Shown here piece after piece: positions 11,532 to 28,438 of a stretch of 28,749 nucleotides of DNA. The notes under the pieces are model-generated. The model was not told the DNA's origin, did no database searches, and worked only from the letters and a program-made list of their open reading frames with translations. Within the stretch, counting starts at the first letter, position 1; each line of letters opens with the position of its first letter. Made by a program: the position numbers and the translations under genes. The stretch is from a virus: IMG/VR virus record IMGVR_UViG_3300032088_000050, positions 1-28,749 of that record; one strand, written 5' to 3'.

Positions 11532-12989
11532 TTATGCATCTTGGAATAAGAAGAAGTTGTTTGCGCCTAATACACAAACTGCTCTCTCTGTCAAGAAGTT
11601 TACCTCCATAGCATCCAAAGAAGATGTCCTTGCTCCACCAGCTGAACCAGTGATCCAAGTTTTGTAACGTCTGTCTTCAGTCTCAGAAGCTCTGTAACGA
11701 ACGTGTAAGAAAGGACGCTTTGCATTCTTTCCTAGTACCTGGTCGTATACTGTAGTCGAACCAGCAGGAACTAACATTCCGTTGATCGCACCGCCTACAA
11801 GACCGCCTCTCATTGTTGGGTCGTTAAGATACTTCCAGTCAGACTTATAGAAGTCATAGCCTCTCCTGAATCCTGAGAACCCAAGATTTAAAGCCATCTC
11901 CTCGTCATTGTCAAACAGTCCATATGAAGTGCCACCAGCCCCGTAAGAGTTCTGAGCAGCTAACATGTCGTCCATATCAAACGAGAAGTTTCTGTTCACG
12001 AAGAGAACGTTCTCCTCGATTGCTCCCTGCTTGTCTAGCCTCTGTATAATAGAATCAAACTCAGCAAGCGTTGTTGGATTACCTCCACCAAACACGTTAC
12101 CTCTCTGACCCACTACGTAGAACACACCCTCTGAACCGTTAAGGTTAGCTTGTGATAGTCCAGCTCCAGTACCTTGGAAGAAGTCTCCTGCCCCAGAAGC
12201 AGCCTCTGCAGGCACGGCCTCAATCATTGCAGTCTCCATGTAGTCCTCGAAACGTAGTCTCGTGTCATGCTCAGACTTTAGATACCAAAGGTATCCGCTT
12301 ACTCCGTCCTCGCCTGATACCTCAATCCATCCAATCTGAGCCATATCAGAACCAGAGACAGCATACTTGTCCTTGATAATTATTGGCTTGTTGTCAAAGA
12401 TTAGGTCGTCAGACTCGTTAGATCCTACCATCCCCTCAGTTCCCTTGTTGAACTCAGACCCGTAGATAAATATATCACAAGCTACATCCGCTGCCATTGT
12501 CTGTCCACCTGCCTCGTAGTAGGCTATTGTTACCGTGTTTGGTGCGCCAGCTGTAGGAGCTACCGTGATCACACCCTTATTAGTTAGGTTAGACCCAGCT
12601 GTCTTGTCGGATATCATTACCGTCTGTCCAACCCTCAATGATGCTGTATTGCTTCCAGCTAGGGCAGGGTTAAAGTTACTGATGTTGTTAGGAATAGTCC
12701 ACACCCCAGTTAAAGCTGTAGCTGCAGCACCTGATGTACAGTTTTGGTATTTTACGTGTAGTCTTCCCTGCTCTGCCCACTTGATAAGGTCAGAGTTAGA
12801 AGGCATCTCTGCTCCCACTAGTCTTAGGAAAGATGATACACTTCTATTTCCATATCTCTCAAACTCTTTCTCGTAAGTATCGGGTAGATACTGATTCAAG
12901 AAATCAAAGTTTGTGATATAGTTACTTTCCAACGGCACTTGCTGTGCTGATGGCTGCAGGTCGAAACCTGGCGTTGCATTTACTGCCAT
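11532..12989 (-). CDS. Major capsid protein, crAss-like HK97 fold
   Basis: A 485-residue protein; crAss-like capsid proteins are of about this length. The block SVSSFLRLVGAEMPSNSDLI (residues 50-69, followed by KWAEQGRLHVKY) is one I associate with capsid proteins of crAss-like and marine Bacteroidota phages. Residues about 116-178 (SLRVGQTVMISDKT, NTVTIAYYEAGG, DIFIYGSEF) look like a beta domain inserted in the N-terminal part. The C-terminal half carries IIQRLDKQGAIEENVLFVNR and KRPFLHVRYRASETEDRRYK. It sits after the scaffold candidate and before a strong terminator, as expected for the most abundant late product. The leader is a long A-rich stretch with no Shine-Dalgarno site. The fold is inferred from family knowledge. 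Confidence 0.9.
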   Translation of the reverse strand: MAVNATPGFDLQPSAQQVPLESNYITNFDFLNQYLPDTYEKEFERYGNRSVSSFLRLVGAEMPSNSDLIKWAEQGRLHVKYQNCTSGAAATALTGVWTIPNNISNFNPALAGSNTASLRVGQTVMISDKTAGSNLTNKGVITVAPTAGAPNTVTIAYYEAGGQTMAADVACDIFIYGSEFNKGTEGMVGSNESDDLIFDNKPIIIKDKYAVSGSDMAQIGWIEVSGEDGVSGYLWYLKSEHDTRLRFEDYMETAMIEAVPAEAASGAGDFFQGTGAGLSQANLNGSEGVFYVVGQRGNVFGGGNPTTLAEFDSIIQRLDKQGAIEENVLFVNRNFSFDMDDMLAAQNSYGAGGTSYGLFDNDEEMALNLGFSGFRRGYDFYKSDWKYLNDPTMRGGLVGGAINGMLVPAGSTTVYDQVLGKNAKRPFLHVRYRASETEDRRYKTWITGSAGGARTSSLDAMEVNFLTERAVCVLGANNFFLFQDA

Positions 12990-14160: not shown

Positions 14161-16596
14161 CTACCTTGGGTTAAACTCAGCTAGATCAAAGCCATCTAAA
14201 CTGTCCTCGTTAGACTCAAAGTTTATTGGTGGCAGGTTTCTCTTCCTCTGCTCAATCATCTTAGACTGCTGCGTGTTAGCCTGAGTAATCCTGTCAGACT
14301 TAGCCTTCTCCCTTGACTGCTCCCTCATATCTATCTGCTGCTGTTCTAAGCCCCTCATCTGCATCTGGTAGCCGAACTCAATCTCCATCAACTGAGCCTT
14401 TAGCTGCGCCTCGTTCTTTAGCTTCTCAATATCCATAGCAACCTCTGCTTGCTTTATCTGCATCTTAGCCTGTGTCTCTGTCTGTATCCTCATCTGTTCG
14501 GCTTGAGACTGTGCCATTACTTGCTGCTGTTGCATCTGTGCCGCTGCTTGTTGCTGCTGCTGTACTGCCTGCTGCTCTGCCTCCTGCTTTCTTTTTCTCT
14601 TAACCTTCAATAGCTGGTTAGCCATCTTTAGGTTATGTATCTCCCTAATGTCAATAGCGTCCTCAAGGTTTATATCCTGCTTGGATAATGCCATCTGTAT
14701 GTTCTGCTCAAGCATAGCCTTCTGCTCCTCGTCTGGAGACATCTCTAGGAATATACCAAAGTCATACAAGTAGAAGTCCCTTAGGTCTTCTAACAGCCTT
14801 AGGTTGTACTTACCAATCTGCATAGCAAACTGATTCTTAAAGTTTGAGTACTCCAATATATCTGATGTCCTTATAACAATACCCTCAGCCAAACGCTTTG
14901 TTATATATAAGCTGCTGTTAAGTATGTGTCTAGTTGCCGTGTTAGAGCTTAGTGCAGCGAGCTTCTGTACACCAACCAACGCCTGTGGGTTAGGGCTTGA
15001 AGCATCCCTTGCCTCGTTCAATCCAGTAACCGTCCTAATCATGTCCATGTAGTGATTATAGTTACCTATCAGCATCTGTAGCTTACCTGACCCACTGCTT
15101 GATGTAAGCTGCTGTATCGGCTGCCTTGCGTTATTAAACTCACCGTCTTGGGTGTAAGACCTACCAACAACAGAACCTGTCTGGAAGTATAGCCTCAGTG
15201 CATCCTCAGGGTTGTAAGCGTTACCTGTACCCAAGTCTACCTCGTTTAATCCATCAGCGTCTATGAACACACCGTCTGGTACAACACGAGAAACTACCTG
15301 CTGTATCTTTAAGTGTGTCATCTGTATAAGGTCTGCAAAAGGAATCATACGCCTCACTAAAGATTCGTATACACCCTTGTACATCCTTGGCGCACACGCA
15401 ACATAGTTAGGCAGTGCATGCTGAGAAGCTGACTTTGGTCTTACCATGTTTTCAGCTAACTCCCACTTCAATAAAATGTTTGTACCCATCACCATGATAC
15501 CATCGTACCATACCTCTATATTCTTTTCTACCCTCTCAAACTTACCCTCCTGCTGCATCTCAATGGGTGGGTTAAACTGGTCGTCCTTAGCCACAACCTT
15601 GTAACTACCGTCTGCCATCTCCTTCTTCTTGTAAACAAAAGAGTGTGTGGTCTTGTAGTTAAAGTACAGCAGGGTGACTGTGTCACGCTGGAACATAGAG
15701 TTCTCGTAGTACTGGGCGTTGTTGTAGTAGTTATACCAAGACTGACTGTATTTAGATATCTTATCCATATCCTCGTTTGATATGTCTGGGTCTATCTTAA
15801 CAAGTTCTGCCATAGGTATAGTCTTTACCTCACCCCAGTAGTAACAGTCCTTAAAGTATGGATCTTCTGTATAGCTGTACACAACGTTTGCAGGGTCAAC
15901 ATAATCTAGCTGTACCCCTTGTCCTGGTAGGAACTGATGCTTTGCCATACTAACGCCAAGCGTCATAAGGTCGTAGTCGCATCTCTTTCTTATCTCGTTG
16001 TATTGGTTCTGGTTTAGTATGGTGTCTATAGCCTCCTCCGCAGCAATCTCTATAGCTGGCTTATATTTAAGCTGCATATATAACTGAAGTTCCTCATCAC
16101 TCTCAGGCAGCTCAGACTCTTCCGTCTGAAAAAGGTTTAGGTCAAAGTCTTGCTCTATCTGTTGAAACAACGGACGTGCAATCATCTCTCCCTCTATCAT
16201 TTTCTGAAACTCATCCCTCTTCTCCGCTGACATAGCATCCTCTGCAAAAGCTTTCACCTTAAACAGCCTATCGTTTAATCCGTTTACTACTATGTCTACA
16301 AACTTAGGTATAACTGGAACAGGTGTCCAGTCTAGGTTAAGGTAACTTAGGTCTCCGTCTACCGCAATCTCGTTCTTGTACTTAGCCACAGACTGCTCAC
16401 CACGGGCATACAGCCTTAGCCTATTGAACTCCCCCCACTGGTTGAAGAACCTACATGAACTATTGTCCTTCCTGAACCACTCGTACTGTATCGCCTGCCC
16501 TATCTGTAGGCCATACTCCATCGTATCTTTCTGTGCGTCAGTAACAAACTGATCAGGAAAAGCGGCTTGATTGATTTCTATTTTTACCTCTTTCAT
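14161..16596 (-). CDS. Portal protein with long Gln-rich coiled tail
   Basis: An 811-residue protein between large terminase and scaffold, the standard place of the portal, the dodecameric ring through which DNA enters and leaves. The body has features that fit known large portals: DYDLMTLGVSMAKHQFLPGQ, then YVDPANVVYSYTEDPYFKDC (about residues 208-250) and a long helical section with RTVTGLNEARDASSPNPQAL (about 510-545). From about residue 665 onward the chain becomes a Gln/Ala/Met-rich coiled coil (KRKRKQEAEQQAVQQQQQAA onward). It ends acidic, DGFDLAEFNPR. Its start codon overlaps the terminase stop (ATGA), so translation is coupled. It is longer than classic portals of about 500-700 residues because of this tail. 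Confidence 0.87.
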   Translation of the reverse strand: MKEVKIEINQAAFPDQFVTDAQKDTMEYGLQIGQAIQYEWFRKDNSSCRFFNQWGEFNRLRLYARGEQSVAKYKNEIAVDGDLSYLNLDWTPVPVIPKFVDIVVNGLNDRLFKVKAFAEDAMSAEKRDEFQKMIEGEMIARPLFQQIEQDFDLNLFQTEESELPESDEELQLYMQLKYKPAIEIAAEEAIDTILNQNQYNEIRKRCDYDLMTLGVSMAKHQFLPGQGVQLDYVDPANVVYSYTEDPYFKDCYYWGEVKTIPMAELVKIDPDISNEDMDKISKYSQSWYNYYNNAQYYENSMFQRDTVTLLYFNYKTTHSFVYKKKEMADGSYKVVAKDDQFNPPIEMQQEGKFERVEKNIEVWYDGIMVMGTNILLKWELAENMVRPKSASQHALPNYVACAPRMYKGVYESLVRRMIPFADLIQMTHLKIQQVVSRVVPDGVFIDADGLNEVDLGTGNAYNPEDALRLYFQTGSVVGRSYTQDGEFNNARQPIQQLTSSSGSGKLQMLIGNYNHYMDMIRTVTGLNEARDASSPNPQALVGVQKLAALSSNTATRHILNSSLYITKRLAEGIVIRTSDILEYSNFKNQFAMQIGKYNLRLLEDLRDFYLYDFGIFLEMSPDEEQKAMLEQNIQMALSKQDINLEDAIDIREIHNLKMANQLLKVKRKRKQEAEQQAVQQQQQAAAQMQQQQVMAQSQAEQMRIQTETQAKMQIKQAEVAMDIEKLKNEAQLKAQLMEIEFGYQMQMRGLEQQQIDMREQSREKAKSDRITQANTQQSKMIEQRKRNLPPINFESNEDSLDGFDLAEFNPR
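14521..14586 (-). repeat. Low-complexity CAG/CAA-type codon repeat in portal
   Basis: Runs of GCTGCTG on the plus strand encode the Gln/Ala-rich part of the portal tail. The repeat is imperfect and in frame, so its length could change by slippage without breaking the gene. Confidence 0.6.
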
Positions 16597-18884
16597 CTAT
16601 TTATTATTCTACTGCGGGAGTCAGTGTTGTTATATGTTGCAAATTTAATGCTTATTTTTTTATTTTCTTTTAACGGTGTATATAGGTGTTTTTGGTTAGC
16701 CATTATAGCCAGACCTGAACTTATAGACGCATCAAACTTTGTCCTGTTGTTGATATCAAACTTTGCCCAGTCCTCTAAGGTTCTTTCAAAGTATACGTCC
16801 CCCATGTCTCCCTCAGTTCTATATATACCAGTCTCATCTAGTCCTACATATTTTTCTATATAAGACTCAATAGCAGATGCGTGTGACTGCTTTACATCCT
16901 GGGATGTGTTAGGTATACCACCCAACTCCTTCTCTGTCTTAGACAGCTTTGAGTAAGCCTTGTCTGGTCGGTTTAAAGAGAACCCTCTATACCCCCTGTT
17001 CTTGAAGTGATACAGTAAACGAGGTTTATTGTTCTCACATAGGATAGGCATACCAAAGAACACACACGCCATCAACACCTCCTCAAAGAATATCTCAGCA
17101 GTCTGAGGCCTGGCTATGTACTCCAAGAAGAAATGATTACTTGGTATCTCCTCCATAGAAAACTTAGTCAAACCATGCAAAGAACCATTAGACCCCTTGC
17201 CCACAACTACTCCAGATATATCGTAGGAATCGCATCCAAAAGTTCCAAGGTGTTCGTTGCCTGGAAAAAATCTACCATTCCTCCTTATTACATTATTCTG
17301 TAACGCAGGTTTAGGCATGTAAGTTACAAAAAATCTGCCTCTTTTATTTGGAGTCCAAACTACCTTGCTGTCCTTGATGCCATCCTTCCAACTAAACGAA
17401 CCCTGAGTTACAAAGTGTTCCCTTATAAGGGAGTCGTTGTAATCTATCTGTTGGTATATCTTGGTTAGGTTAAATATAGACTGCTTACTCTCATCCCTAA
17501 AAGCATGAGACTCGCTACGAGGAAACTGCCTGTAGAACTCATTAAGTGCATCGGGGTCTGATGTTAGAGAACTAACCTCGTTGTCCCAGTAGTCAATAGC
17601 ACCCTGGCTAATAAGCTCTTCGTCAATACCCATCACTGGCTTGCTTGGTGTCTTTAACACAGGCATTCCATACTGGTCTATAAACCCCTCCATGTTCCAC
17701 TCCATAGGAATGAATAGGTTATACAGGCCACTCTTAGTCTGTCCGTTTGAGTTCCTCTTAGATACATCAGAGTCGTAGTATAATTGTTTAAAATTCCTCC
17801 CACCCTTATCCAAGGCATTAGACGTAGAACCCATCATGCACTTACCCACAACCTTACTACCCAGCCTGAGACATGTTTTAGTAACACGCCAGTTGTTTAG
17901 TATATTGTCTGGCTTGTCCCACTTTCCACTCTCGTCATGTATAAGTAGCTTTAGCTTCTCACCATCATAGCTGTTGTCTGAAGTATTCTTCCAGTCAATA
18001 GTGGTATCAAGCCCCTCAAGCTTTTCCTCTTCGTCTATGAGGAACATATTCTTTTTTGTAATCTTAGACGCAGGGACTCTGTAAGCAAGCTCTGTCTTAG
18101 GCTTATCCATACCGTCCTGTATAGGCTTAAAGAAGAATGGGTAGTTGTTTGATATGGGAACAACCTTGTCTGTAAACATCTTCTTTGCATCAGACCCTGT
18201 CTTTGACAGTATACCTACACGAGCATCCCTAGCAAGCGTAGCCATGTTTACACACTCCTCAGAACCCATGTAAGAAAACCCTGACCTCCTAATCTTTAGG
18301 TAGCATATACCAAAGCTTCTCTTGTCTGCCTTGCAAGCCTCCCAGTATATATAGAACACCCTATTGGCCTCCCTAAAGTCTGGTAGTCCAACATCAATCT
18401 TAGTCCACTGTAGATACATATAATGAGAACCTGTAATATATGTAGGAACTCCATTGTTATAGAACCAGTAACCTAAGTCCCTCCTATTAAACTCTTTCTC
18501 TATGTAGTCCACCCACCTCTCCTTAAAACTAAGGGGCATGTTGTGCCACTGAAATATTGTTGATATCCTCTTTAACTCCTTGGAGTACTCTGATGCCTCC
18601 CAGTACTGAGACGCTTTTTCAGTAGACCTCTTGTATGGGTCTTTAGGTGTATGTGGTAGGGCAACCTTTAGGTTGTTTATGTTGTATATATCTCCGATAG
18701 TCCCGTCACGAGATATAACCACGATATCATACTTCTCATCGTAGCCATAGACCCAGGACTTGTGTCTGTTCTTTAGCTTCCTAACGCTTGAGGGTATAGT
18801 GTCGTTTACTTTTGTGTATAAGCTATTTTGACTTTGATTCTGCAAATCCTTTTGGTAAGTTATTTTTTTCTCTTTCCACGCCAT
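16593..18884 (-). CDS. terL: Terminase large subunit
   Basis: The packaging motor: an N-terminal ATPase drives DNA into the head and a C-terminal RNase H-like nuclease cuts it. From the ATG at 18884 it is 763 residues. The phosphate-binding loop is the crAss-like variant RRSGFSYMGS (about 199-208), without the usual Lys. The Walker B candidate is LLIHDESGK (about 313-321, Asp317-Glu318). Nuclease acid candidates are Asp552 in GTFGCDSYD, Glu617 in LCENNKP and Asp718 in TKFDASISSGL. An in-frame TTG at 18944 gives a longer version, but it lies deeper inside the preceding gene; the ATG has an AGGAGGAGG stretch 12 bases upstream. The gene overlaps the 91-residue gene by 62 bases and the portal start by four. 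Confidence 0.92.
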   Translation of the reverse strand: MAWKEKKITYQKDLQNQSQNSLYTKVNDTIPSSVRKLKNRHKSWVYGYDEKYDIVVISRDGTIGDIYNINNLKVALPHTPKDPYKRSTEKASQYWEASEYSKELKRISTIFQWHNMPLSFKERWVDYIEKEFNRRDLGYWFYNNGVPTYITGSHYMYLQWTKIDVGLPDFREANRVFYIYWEACKADKRSFGICYLKIRRSGFSYMGSEECVNMATLARDARVGILSKTGSDAKKMFTDKVVPISNNYPFFFKPIQDGMDKPKTELAYRVPASKITKKNMFLIDEEEKLEGLDTTIDWKNTSDNSYDGEKLKLLIHDESGKWDKPDNILNNWRVTKTCLRLGSKVVGKCMMGSTSNALDKGGRNFKQLYYDSDVSKRNSNGQTKSGLYNLFIPMEWNMEGFIDQYGMPVLKTPSKPVMGIDEELISQGAIDYWDNEVSSLTSDPDALNEFYRQFPRSESHAFRDESKQSIFNLTKIYQQIDYNDSLIREHFVTQGSFSWKDGIKDSKVVWTPNKRGRFFVTYMPKPALQNNVIRRNGRFFPGNEHLGTFGCDSYDISGVVVGKGSNGSLHGLTKFSMEEIPSNHFFLEYIARPQTAEIFFEEVLMACVFFGMPILCENNKPRLLYHFKNRGYRGFSLNRPDKAYSKLSKTEKELGGIPNTSQDVKQSHASAIESYIEKYVGLDETGIYRTEGDMGDVYFERTLEDWAKFDINNRTKFDASISSGLAIMANQKHLYTPLKENKKISIKFATYNNTDSRSRIINR
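16640..16647 (-). promoter_or_regulatory. Possible TAnnTTTG box inside the end of terL
   Basis: The minus strand reads TAAATTTG, 43 bases before the portal ATG. It lies within codons for IKFATY, so a chance match is possible. I keep it because its spacing would suit portal expression. Confidence 0.25.
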
Positions 18885-19098
18885 TGATCCTGTCTTCCTC
18901 CTCCTGTATACGCTGAAGTATATCGAAGGCATCAAAGATAGCAAGCTTCTTAGCAGCCGCAGCGTTCTTTAGTCTGTCAGCCGCAAGCTCATCCTCTGGG
19001 TCTATCTTTATTATCTTCTCGTTGGCTACCTGAATCAAGTGCTGCACAGAGTTTTTTCCTGCTTGAATTATCTGTATCTTTAGTTCCCTTATATCCAT
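18823..19098 (-). CDS. Helical protein in the small-terminase position
   Basis: A 91-residue, almost wholly helical and charged protein (MDIRELKIQIIQAGKNSVQH; DPEDELAADRLKNAAAAKKL; FDAFDILQRIQEEEDRING). It lies directly before the large terminase and its end overlaps that gene by 62 bases, so the two are linked in translation. Small terminase subunits are usually short, helical and placed here, and none has been easy to recognise in crAss-like phages. I therefore suggest a small terminase, but there is no clear helix-turn-helix and the assignment rests on position and shape. It begins one base after the co-chaperonin stop. Confidence 0.7.
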   Translation of the reverse strand: MDIRELKIQIIQAGKNSVQHLIQVANEKIIKIDPEDELAADRLKNAAAAKKLAIFDAFDILQRIQEEEDRINGVEREKNNLPKGFAESKSK

Positions 19099-19099
19099 A

Positions 19100-19666
19100 C
19101 TATAGCTTGATGGTTATATTGCTGGTGTACATCCTAAACAACTTCTGGCCCTCTATATCAAACATGTACTCACTGAAAGGCTCGAAGCATATGCTGTCCC
19201 CCTTCTCTAAACCAAGCTCTACTAACTGGTCGTTGAGGTACACTAACTCTCCATGTAGTGGCTCTTCTTTTACCCCGCTGCCTATAATGTAAGAGTCCTT
19301 CTTTTTGATTGGTTTTACAAAGCAGTACTTATCAAATGCCTTCCACTCATCTCCCTTCTTGTATAAAAAGAACTGATCGAAGTCTACAATAAATAGGTTA
19401 TCCTTGAGCCAGCTCCTGCCACTCTTCTGCCTGCCGTATATATCGTTGTAGTACTTGAATACATTGTGGTGTACAAGTATAGTATCTCCCTTAGATACCT
19501 CTCCTTCGTACCCCATGGGTACGCTGACTACCTCTGCATAGCGATTAGCTACGGTGTGATCCTCCTCAGATACGCTGATGATTAAGTCCCTATCACCGTA
19601 TACCCTTATGTTGTCATAGCGCCTGCCCTTTACAGGCTTTACAATAAATGAGTATGGTGATTGCAT
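19100..19666 (-). CDS. Tandem GroES-like co-chaperonin
   Basis: A 188-residue protein from the ATG at 19666, whose first base is the last base of the preceding stop (TAATG). A longer start at 19723 exists but adds only residues overlapping the upstream gene. The C-terminal half (114-188) has GroES order: YCFVKPI strand, a flexible loop (IIGSGVKEEPLHG), ELVYLN, then LGLEKGDSICFEPFSEYMFD and FRMYTSNITI. The first half repeats the pattern more loosely: FIVKPV, RYAEVVSVP, VSKGDTILVHHN, FIVDFDQFFLY. GroES-like proteins cap the GroEL chamber; T4 gp31 does so for its capsid protein. Here the likely client is the major capsid protein, made from the same operon. The duplicated fold within one chain is unusual. 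It might instead have a structural role. Confidence 0.75.
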   Translation of the reverse strand: MQSPYSFIVKPVKGRRYDNIRVYGDRDLIISVSEEDHTVANRYAEVVSVPMGYEGEVSKGDTILVHHNVFKYYNDIYGRQKSGRSWLKDNLFIVDFDQFFLYKKGDEWKAFDKYCFVKPIKKKDSYIIGSGVKEEPLHGELVYLNDQLVELGLEKGDSICFEPFSEYMFDIEGQKLFRMYTSNITIKL

Positions 19667-19890
19667 TAAAAGTTTATGTTGTACTCCAGCGATATAGGCA
19701 TCGTCTTCTTGAACTCCTTCCATAGCAAGACCTCGTCCTTGTTACGAATCCATATCCTATAAGAAAAATCCTCATGGTCATACTGAATCAAATGGATGCA
19801 GTATTTTCCACCTAAAACATCCTGTCCCGCAATGTAATGCATTGCCCCAGACTTATAGTCTGCTCCTATGGATATCTTTCTTATGTCCAA
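19666..19890 (-). CDS. Small conserved protein of unknown function
   Basis: A 74-residue protein, probably starting at a TTG codon (19890), since the in-frame stop lies just upstream and there is no ATG before residue 17. It starts MDIRKISIGADYKSGAMHY, a form I recall in other marine phages, and carries YCIHLIQYDHEDFSYRIWIR, which looks like a small beta sheet. Its stop overlaps the co-chaperonin start (TAATG), so their translation is coupled and their roles may be linked. No motif reveals a function. The start choice is the weakest part. Confidence 0.65.
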   Translation of the reverse strand: MDIRKISIGADYKSGAMHYIAGQDVLGGKYCIHLIQYDHEDFSYRIWIRNKDEVLLWKEFKKTMPISLEYNINF

Positions 19891-20990: not shown

Positions 20991-23006
20991 TTATTGAGAT
21001 TTTAATGCTTCTATTTCTGCTTTTAATTCTTGTATTGCTTTTACTAATATAGGAACTAATTTACCATAACTCATTTCTAGTTTATCTGGATTTGAATTGT
21101 ATACAAGCCTTAATGTATCATCATCTAATTCTTGTACCTCTTGTGCTACAAATCCAAAATCTTTTTTGCCCTTATTACTAGAATGAAATTCTACTTCTTC
21201 ATAAACTGGCTCTTCATTTTCATCAAATACCCCATTCCCATTTTCGTCTTTAACTTGTTGTAATTTTATTTCTGAACGATTTGCCCAAACAAATTCTCTA
21301 GGTTGTAAACTATCAATGAAATCTAATCCGTAAGTCAAATCTTTTATTTCTGCCTTATCTCTCTCATCTGATAATGATGTAATAGATGTAACTGCACACC
21401 TCAACGTACTTATACTTGAATTACCAAGTGTAAATTCATTTGAAACAGTGGCTGAACTTGCCGCTGAATCATTTCCTATTAAAGTATTGTTTGATCCACT
21501 TGTTAAATTATTTGTACCAGTATTTCCGCTATTAGTTCCTATTAAAGTATTGCCGCTGCCAGTTACATTATAACCAGAATAGTAACCTAAAGCTACATTG
21601 TCTGTAAACGTACTTCCACTATATAATGATCGATAACCAATTGCAGTATTTAATGACCCAGTTGTTTGCCACCACAAGGCTTTTCCACCGAATGCCGTAT
21701 GATTACTATGCTGTGTTGTAAGATAACACGCTTGGTGACCTACTACTGTAGATTCTTGTCCATGATATCCTCCTAGATTATATAATGTTTTTGTTCCAAT
21801 AGATATACTGCTCGCCATCCCAAGACTTTGTTGTGCCGCTTGAGATCCAATAATTACAGATTCATAATTTGCACGAGAACTATTTCCAGCTTTCCATCCG
21901 ATCATAACTGAATAAGATAAAGTTGTTGCACTCTCTCCAGCCTTTATTCCCAAGAATACATTTTTGTTGCCACTCGTTAATGAATTACCCGCATCATTAC
22001 CGATGACTAGATTGTCTGCTGGATTGCCGCTTAATGTAGTTGGTACATTAACAAAATAAGAGGATGTGCCGTCTATCAATACATCGCTTAATCCATTTAA
22101 GCTTGTTGCACCACCTCCTCCACCTCCGCTACCATTAGCAGCAGCAGTTATTCTACCCTGTGCATCTACAGTAATATCAGCAGCAGTGTAAGAACCTGCA
22201 GTTACGGCAGTATTATCAAGGTTTACTGTCAAAGTGGTAGATCCCCCAGCAGTAGATATTCCTGTACCCCCAGCTATGTCTACAGTAGCATTATTTGTTA
22301 TAAAAGTAGGAAGTCCAGTATCTCCTTGTAATCGCCAACTATAAGAACCAGCAGCATCTATCCAATCTGTACCAGTTACTGTAGAAGACAATACTTGTCC
22401 ATTAGTTCCTGGTGAATTATTTGAGTCATAGTAAGCACCTGTGACCCTAGCGTTTCCATTTACATGAAGTTTTTGAGTAGGACTTGAAGTGCCTAGACCT
22501 GTACTGCCTCCTATTTCTGCACTACCGTCAACCTGTAAATCATTGTAAGTTGTGATATTCCCATCAGCAGTAATATAACCATCTGAGTAAATTCCTGTGT
22601 CCCCATAAAGTACTCCATTAGATAATATATTTCCAGTTACATGGAGTGGTTGTGATGGAGTTGTAGTTCCTATACCTACGTTTCCAGTTGATGAGATACG
22701 CATCCGTTCAGATGAGTTTACACGAAACTGCATACTATCTGTAGCATGCTGATACCTAATCCCTCCTACATAAAAAGTATCGCTATCTCCAAAACGTATA
22801 TAATTACTTTGAGTTGTACCTGCAACCTCCATTCTAATTTCAGAATCACTTGAAGGCCCTGTACCTGTGGTTTTTATTCTAATAACAGAATCAGCAGAAG
22901 ATTGTACATCTAATGTGTAATTAGGAGTTGTAGTTCCTATACCTACGTTTCCAGTTACTGTAAGATCTCCATCAATAGACTGACTGTTTAAAAATCTAAT
23001 TGCCAT
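20991..23006 (-). CDS. Tail fibre with self-cleaving peptidase S74 chaperone
   Basis: A 671-residue fibre. The start MAIRFLNSQSIDGDLTVTGN is followed by three GxxGxGTTTP-type repeats, typical of Bacteroidota and their phages. A mid section is shared with the 567-residue fibre (VDIAGGTG, then DITVDAQGRITAA). Then come LIG-N-SG repeats like trimeric adhesin heads. The last 128 residues are the intramolecular chaperone of endosialidase-type fibres: SDERDK (Ser546, Lys551), FGFVAQEVQE, MSYGKLVPILVKAIQELKAE. Ser and Lys five apart match the cleaving dyad known in this family, so the chaperone should trim itself off after the fibre trimer folds. An EF-hand-like loop (587-598) is inserted in it. The DNA is clearly more A/T-rich than neighbouring genes, a sign of recent acquisition. 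Confidence 0.9.
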   Translation of the reverse strand: MAIRFLNSQSIDGDLTVTGNVGIGTTTPNYTLDVQSSADSVIRIKTTGTGPSSDSEIRMEVAGTTQSNYIRFGDSDTFYVGGIRYQHATDSMQFRVNSSERMRISSTGNVGIGTTTPSQPLHVTGNILSNGVLYGDTGIYSDGYITADGNITTYNDLQVDGSAEIGGSTGLGTSSPTQKLHVNGNARVTGAYYDSNNSPGTNGQVLSSTVTGTDWIDAAGSYSWRLQGDTGLPTFITNNATVDIAGGTGISTAGGSTTLTVNLDNTAVTAGSYTAADITVDAQGRITAAANGSGGGGGGATSLNGLSDVLIDGTSSYFVNVPTTLSGNPADNLVIGNDAGNSLTSGNKNVFLGIKAGESATTLSYSVMIGWKAGNSSRANYESVIIGSQAAQQSLGMASSISIGTKTLYNLGGYHGQESTVVGHQACYLTTQHSNHTAFGGKALWWQTTGSLNTAIGYRSLYSGSTFTDNVALGYYSGYNVTGSGNTLIGTNSGNTGTNNLTSGSNNTLIGNDSAASSATVSNEFTLGNSSISTLRCAVTSITSLSDERDKAEIKDLTYGLDFIDSLQPREFVWANRSEIKLQQVKDENGNGVFDENEEPVYEEVEFHSSNKGKKDFGFVAQEVQELDDDTLRLVYNSNPDKLEMSYGKLVPILVKAIQELKAEIEALKSQ
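21213..21248 (-). other. EF-hand-like calcium loop in the S74 domain
   Basis: Codons for residues 587-598, DENGNGVFDENE. This fits D-x-N-x-N-G-x-hydrophobic-D-x-x-E, the twelve-residue calcium loop used by EF-hand and dockerin proteins. Calcium binding is inferred. Confidence 0.55.
22657..22689 (-). repeat. 33-base exact direct repeat, copy A
   Basis: Identical to 22924-22956. It encodes the TGNVGIGTTTP segment of the fibre. Such exact repeats can recombine and change the fibre length by 267 bases, in frame. Confidence 0.85.
22924..22956 (-). repeat. 33-base exact direct repeat, copy B
   Basis: Second copy, offset by 267 bases (89 codons) from copy A, also encoding TGNVGIGTTTP. Confidence 0.85.
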
Positions 23007-27964: not shown

Positions 27965-28438
27965 CTATGTAGCTTTTGCTTGGATAACAGTCCAGTTTGA
28001 TCCGTCTGACCAAACCGCTATACCATTATACGATTTGTTAATCACATAATGAGTAGTTCCGTCTATTGTTTCAGGAGCTGGTGAATATACATTAACCCTA
28101 TTATTTGCGTCTACTGTTCCGTCTGTAGTGATTCTTAAAAATCTATAAGGCACATCTGCTGCTGAAGGAAGTGTAAAATTATAATCACCACTACTTCCAT
28201 TCCAAGAAAAATCAATAATACTTTTAGTGCCACTGTAGGTAGATGATCCTCCATCAGAAGCTGTAATAAAATCAGGAACTAACTTTACAATACCTGTTTC
28301 AAAATGATTTATCACGTAGTCAGAGACTTGATCAATTGTATATGCGTCTCTGCCTGAATTAGCAAGAGCAGATCCTTTATTCTTTGTTTCTATGCCAGGG
28401 GCTACTCCATGAAATTTAGTTCCTTCGGGTATACTCAT
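27965..28438 (-). CDS. Fibre- or decoration-like structural protein
   Basis: A 157-residue protein that starts MSIPEGTKFHGVAPGIETKN, then KGSALANSGRDAYTIDQVSD, an opening I associate with short structural proteins of marine phages. The second half is beta-rich (IIDFSWNGSSGDYNFTLPSA, HYVINKSYNGIAVWSDGSNW, TVIQAKAT) like a fibre tip. The DNA is more A/T-rich than its neighbours. Its ATG shares a base with the stop of the preceding gene (TAATG). Role in host contact or head decoration is inferred. Confidence 0.72.
   Translation of the reverse strand: MSIPEGTKFHGVAPGIETKNKGSALANSGRDAYTIDQVSDYVINHFETGIVKLVPDFITASDGGSSTYSGTKSIIDFSWNGSSGDYNFTLPSAADVPYRFLRITTDGTVDANNRVNVYSPAPETIDGTTHYVINKSYNGIAVWSDGSNWTVIQAKAT

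Follow-up and report, generated by a model that had tools for sequence, protein, structure and literature searches.

The 188-residue product of a phage gene is predicted to hold two GroES domains in a single chain, in the manner of the co-chaperonin Cpn20. The gene lies in the window, which is a virus record from IMG/VR, 28,749 bases long and without an attached host genome. Computation establishes its two GroES-fold domains, its family, its synteny and, in relatives, its co-occurrence with a separate single GroES and with GroEL. The protein probably serves as a Cpn20-like part of the lid: with the single GroES it would make up a seven-domain lid on a phage or host GroEL, for the folding of virion proteins. 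The family is large and occurs in phages of marine and freshwater flavobacteria.

The minus-strand frame 19666..19100 (stop included) encodes 188 amino acids; the plus strand over the same positions, 19100..19666, has many stops. The initial annotation did not name a strand. The start codon of the tandem gene overlaps the stop codon of the 74-aa ORF upstream (taATG). The longest ORF has an earlier start that gives 207 aa. That start was dropped in view of the taATG overlap and of the alignment of relatives, which begins at Met 20. Because the overlap and the relatives point to the same Met, 188 aa is taken as the correct length. The PHROG profile phrog_13932, named 'co-chaperonin GroES', covers residues 1-184 (E=4.2e-20), and this family name is already public in databases. 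A PDB sequence search with the tandem protein gave no significant match. The features of the locus are collected in Table 1.

Table 1. Features of the tandem gene and its surroundings in the window.
Feature	Position	Strand	Properties and evidence
Tandem GroES-like (Cpn20-like) co-chaperonin, putative	19100..19666	-	188 aa, 22.0 kDa; phrog_13932 full-length match
N-terminal GroES-like domain, residues 1-105	19352..19666	-	Half-model pLDDT 83.5; Foldseek PDB ranks 1-20
C-terminal GroES-like domain, residues 106-188	19103..19351	-	Pfam PF00166 at 122-185; hhalign
N-domain loop at mobile-loop position, residues ~13-43	19538..19630	-	Conserved [FL][IF] at 28-29 and S-x-S-E-E-D-H at 31-37
C-domain short mobile-loop-like segment, residues ~120-138, IKKKDSYIIGSGVKEEPLH	19253..19309	-	Y/F126 and I/L127 conserved, remainder variable
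Conserved 74-aa ORF, function unassigned	19666..19890	-	Immediately upstream, stop overlaps tandem start; homologues in 167 loci
Conserved 91-aa ORF between tandem and terminase	18823..19098	-	Homologues in 164 loci; possible small terminase, from position alone
Terminase large subunit	16593..18944	-	phrog_6681, E=2.6e-171
Portal protein	14161..16596	-	phrog_6547, E=1.5e-145
Probable major capsid protein, candidate client	11532..12989	-	52.6 kDa; phrog_13704 virion structural protein
157-aa ORF	27965..28438	-	Homologues directly downstream of phage groEL-groES pair

The full-length AlphaFold2 model, built from 82 relatives, has two domains (mean pLDDT 86.9, pTM 0.81), and the GroES beta-barrel fold is present in both halves of the predicted models. 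In a Foldseek search of 350,542 PDB chains, ranks 1 and 2 are two chains of entry 7ekq (E=8.5e-5 and 3.6e-4). These are Cpn20 and Cpn23 (Chaperonin 23) of the Chlamydomonas chloroplast, and single-domain GroES comes after them. The TM-score over the query is 0.58 for Cpn20 and 0.54 for Cpn23, and the listed one-domain GroES and gp31 chains reach at most 0.32. Since the Cpn20 and Cpn23 scores are well above those of single-domain chains, both domains fit in one rigid superposition. The model thus suggests that the two barrels are placed as neighbours in a GroES ring. The initial annotation had read GroES order twice in the 188-residue product, and the Cpn20/Cpn23 matches, the fold of the N half and the Pfam match of the C half agree with it. 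It had also suggested a structural comparison with GroES and gp31, in which both GroES barrels are now predicted.

The N half modelled alone retrieves exclusively GroES, Cpn10, gp31 and Cpn20-type co-chaperonins at Foldseek PDB ranks 1-20, at a modest best E=0.005. After rank 20 the list turns to quinone-oxidoreductase-type proteins, whose catalytic domain is GroES-like. The C half matches the Pfam Cpn10 family (PF00166) at residues 122-185, with 21.4 bits narrowly exceeding the cutoff of 21.1; on its own it scores 21.2 bits. Homologues score higher with the same family, at 32.6 bits for phi18:3 and 28.2 bits for phi38:1, and within the family 56 of 82 proteins match it at E up to 0.1. Against a phage GroES profile, hhalign gives the C half a probability of 80%.

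For the N half of the window protein, neither Pfam nor hhalign gives a match. Its score of 4.4 bits against a one-domain GroES HMM is equalled by 4 of 500 shuffles and is not significant. The fold comparison and the phi18:3 homologue are needed because sequence methods failed on this half. The N half of the phi18:3 protein reaches 13.6 bits with the one-domain HMM (best of 500 shuffles, 5.8), and its C half reaches 22.6 bits (best of 500 shuffles, 8.2). The one-domain GroES profile phrog_3188 also aligns to residues 14-64 of an elemo homologue (E=3e-4). An hhalign comparison of the N half with the C half gives no signal, so the halves do not come from a recent duplication.

Two other viral proteins share this structural neighborhood. 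BFVD entry A0A516L046 (304 aa) ranks third among viral structural matches to the tandem protein and is long enough for three GroES-size domains. BFVD entry S0A2F3, an uncharacterised 129-aa protein of the GroEL-carrying Cellulophaga phage phi14:2, matches the GroES fold and may be an unannotated co-chaperonin.

Both domains have a loop at the position of the GroES mobile loop. The N-half loop has 31 residues and the C-half loop 18; E. coli GroES has 23 and gp31 has 25. Of the two tandem loops, the N-half one is both the longer and the better conserved. In the full-length model, pLDDT drops to 62 over residues 31-40 of the N loop. Position 28 of the N loop is a large hydrophobic residue in 100% of 91 non-redundant relatives, and position 29 in 99%; an S-x-S-[E/Q/K]-E-D-H that hardly varies comes next. 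In the C loop, position 126 is mostly Y/F (97% large hydrophobic) and position 127 is I/L/V (100%), and the other positions vary. A hydrophobic pair is kept in both loops (28-29 and 126-127). The third position of the tripeptide is not conserved, and the canonical G-I/V-L tripeptide is absent from the loops of the window's clade. The phi18:3 tandem protein has GroES-like loops in both domains (KTESGLEL in the N domain and SLIYIPEDNKEK in the C domain). These host-like loops, in a phage that must use host GroEL, and the divergent loops that accompany a phage GroEL fit a co-divergence of loop and chaperonin, seen in one lineage. The mobile-loop-like segment assigned earlier to the C half is correctly placed, although short and variable, and only its Y/F-I/L pair is conserved. 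The accompanying suggestion that one loop has been lost is not clearly borne out, as both persist and the C-half loop is shortened. The conservation expected of hydrophobic loop residues in relatives is found in both loops.

The roof segments of the N and C halves have 10 and 11 residues, and the E. coli-type roof hairpin is missing in both. For the same segment, E. coli GroES has 17 residues, gp31 has 13 and a Cytophagales GroES has 12, and the hairpin is largely missing in the host group too. Given the gp31 and Cytophagales lengths, a short roof is not decisive against membership of the GroES family. An argument that the protein is roofless like gp31 is weakened in turn: GroES of Bacteroidota is already short-roofed, so the loss is not phage-specific.

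IMG/VR contains at least 593 loci of the family. Relatives occur in 83 phage records, of which 68 are Flavobacterium elemo phages, 13 Cellulophaga phages, 1 a Maribacter phage and 1 unclassified. The named members of phrog_13932 (Cellulophaga phi18:3 gp096 and phi38:1 gp089, the Flavobacterium elemo phages and Maribacter Panino) belong to the same family by full-length profile and have an identical gene order. A search of 84,980 species genomes of bacteria and archaea finds only 11 tandem loci, all in entries titled as metagenome-assembled genomes (MAGs), and the tandem gene is therefore read as a phage gene. One phage segment with a tandem gene lies inside the 'chromosome' of an Aenigmatarchaeota MAG (CP070801.1, 863633-884193), which is probably a chimeric bin.

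In reading direction, the gene order is 74-aa ORF, tandem, 91-aa ORF, terminase large subunit (TerL), portal, a 364-aa protein and the capsid-like virion protein. The 74-aa and 91-aa flanking ORFs match no known family in Pfam or PHROG. Of the 166 loci with room for it, 161 have TerL no more than 1 kb behind the tandem gene on the same strand, and the remaining 5 have it within 1.9 kb. The location before packaging and capsid genes, first described for the window, is thus seen in relatives as well. Elsewhere in the window, a 671-aa tail-like protein (20991-23006, minus strand) has a C-terminal end that by eye resembles an endosialidase (S74)-type intramolecular chaperone.

Companion genes were counted in the 17 records that carry the tandem gene and measure at least 57 kb; these counts are not phylogenetically independent. 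GroEL (Pfam PF00118) is found in 16 of the 17; its overall frequency is 278 in 50,697 phage records. A separate one-domain GroES is also found in 16 of the 17, and in the exception GroEL runs off the contig end. The single record that has no GroEL is phi18:3 (NC_021794, 71 kb, circular), which encodes the tandem protein gp096 and a single GroES (31117-31338). The mobile loop of the single GroES is clear, reading K-T-x-S-G-[LI]-L-L-S in most. The tandem gene lies 5-13 kb away from groEL-groES and is grouped with the terminase gene instead.

Neither GroEL nor a single GroES was found in the 28,749 bases of the window. Contigs near-identical to the window all end before the expected groEL site, and none shows groEL. 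The chaperonin set of the window's phage is for this reason assigned from relatives. The window ends 311 bases past the 157-aa gene, so a groEL-groES pair probably lies just outside the contig. A search with the 157-aa protein, which was not begun from chaperonin genes, finds groEL and groES upstream in all 9 loci with room for them; 7 of these 9 also show the tandem gene downstream.

The phage GroEL has 32-39% identity to E. coli GroEL. Glu occupies the position of E. coli L234 in 13 of 15 sequences, and V263 and V264 are mostly replaced by Ala. Inter-ring residues are not conserved and the GGM tail is absent. These changes may reflect an altered groove and single-ring behaviour. For phi38:1, GroEL is reported to be methylated in infected cells and to accompany the capsid protein in preparations of virions (PMC13288928).

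Because relatives encode a single GroES and usually GroEL, the tandem protein is read as an additional subunit of the lid, more than a mere stand-in for host GroES. Its two GroES-like barrels would be laid out as ring neighbours. Together with the phage single GroES they would assemble into a lid of seven GroES domains, for example 3 x 2 + 1. Such a lid would close over the GroEL that the phage encodes or, in lineages such as phi18:3 that have none, over that of the host. The closed cage would fold large virion proteins, with the ~53-kDa capsid protein as the likeliest client. We infer the ring stoichiometry, the chaperonin binding and the client. The listed chains of 7ekq, two of Cpn20, one of Cpn23 and one of Cpn11, add up to seven GroES domains. 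In plants and algae, mixed rings of Cpn10 and Cpn20 that add up to seven Cpn10 domains are functional; homo-oligomers can also function, with one domain left out (PMC5780408; PMC3542282). The T4 capsid protein gp23 (~56 kDa) requires gp31 (PMC6318259), and the capsid protein here is similar in mass at 52.6 kDa. A broader scheme is conceivable but doubtful. Bacteroidota phages, independently of plastids, may have evolved a three-part set in which a mixed single and tandem lid solves the seven-fold symmetry problem. The loops would diverge together with a groove-altered phage GroEL, giving a private capsid-folding cage that excludes host GroES.

The tandem protein could instead make a lid alone, from three or four chains with six or eight domains that sit asymmetrically on the seven-fold chaperonin, acting like gp31 while the single GroES serves clients of its own. 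Plastid and apicoplast Cpn20 act as homo-oligomers, mostly tetramers, and Plasmodium Cpn20 substitutes for GroES in E. coli (PMC3542282; PMC5780408). GroES concatamers of six to eight domains also function on GroEL (PMC5780408), and the tandem gene stands apart from groES-groEL, so its expression may differ. We consider this unlikely, as the single GroES accompanies the tandem protein in nearly all near-complete genomes, even those that have no GroEL. That pairing fits partners better than it fits two alternative lids. A repurposed GroES fold is more improbable. Here the protein would not bind a chaperonin and would act in head assembly or DNA packaging beside terminase and portal. Its strict placement immediately ahead of terminase and the diverged loops in the window's clade agree with such a role, as do the N-domain S-x-S-E-E-D-H and H66-H67-N68, which are highly conserved and unlike GroES. 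The GroES-like loops in both domains of phi18:3, the conserved hydrophobic pair in each loop and the chaperonin parts encoded by tandem-carrying phages argue against it.

There is little to recommend a host-directed factor, such as one that competes with the GroES of the host or caps its ClpP, as chloroplast Cpn11/20/23 does for ClpP there. The best structural match, 7ekq, is a co-chaperonin complex on chloroplast ClpP that is reported to be inhibitory (PMC8889267), but the tandem gene sits among structural genes and no ClpP-specific feature was seen in it. Slighter still is the chance that the C half alone is a GroES domain and that the N half is an unrelated, just beta-rich segment. The window N half has no Pfam match and an HMM score inside the shuffle range. 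Its model nevertheless returns GroES-type co-chaperonins through PDB rank 20, the phi18:3 N half outscores all 500 shuffles, and phrog_3188 aligns within the same half of the elemo homologue. The reading kept is a Cpn20-like subunit that probably shares its lid with the single GroES.

The public annotation of phrog_13932 members is ordinary GroES/cpn10, and two domains or a pairing with a single GroES are found nowhere in it. The literature searched holds no description of the tandem nature or of a single-plus-double lid set, although earlier recognition is possible. Chaperonins go unmentioned in the Flavobacterium phage paper, and the Maribacter Panino paper lists GroEL and GroES homologues with nothing further on them. 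If the proposal is true, these phages bring a complete folding cage, beyond a lid. Cultured carriers include phi38:1, phi18:3 and Panino, and phi18:3, with both lids and no GroEL, permits a direct comparison.

Jumbo-phage chaperonins (EL gp146, OBP, AR9) are likewise phage-encoded and group I-like. The phage EL chaperonin did not interact with E. coli GroES (PMC7185714). The phages here carry GroES-type partners.

T4 gp31 shares with the tandem protein a phage-encoded GroES fold, a reduced roof segment, a long loop (in the tandem N half) and a capsid protein as the proposed client. It differs in having one domain of 111 aa that works with host GroEL, and it appears at rank 32 in the fold search. 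The tandem protein has two domains, and its relatives usually encode their own GroEL. The initial proposal of a gp31-like protein that replaces the host co-chaperonin thus stands as to a phage co-chaperonin family; the closer parallel is plastid Cpn20, and relatives have a single GroES and usually GroEL besides.

Plastid and apicoplast Cpn20, Cpn21 and Cpn23 have the same two head-to-tail GroES domains in a ~20-kDa chain. The Cpn20 type is the top full-length structural match, and it keeps the company of a one-domain Cpn10 and Cpn60, as the tandem protein does in relatives. In contrast to it, the tandem protein is phage-encoded, has 12-13% identity and shorter roof segments, and its loops are divergent in the window's clade. 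That identity is too low for a tree, so membership of the Cpn20 lineage is not claimed; a putative origin independent of plastid Cpn20 is likely. Double-domain co-chaperonins, best known from plant chloroplasts, have been described from plastids and apicoplasts, where the fit of an even domain number to a seven-fold chaperonin has long been debated. The phage trio of a single lid, a double lid and usually a chaperonin is a second system, and a genetically simple one, in which to address this symmetry question.
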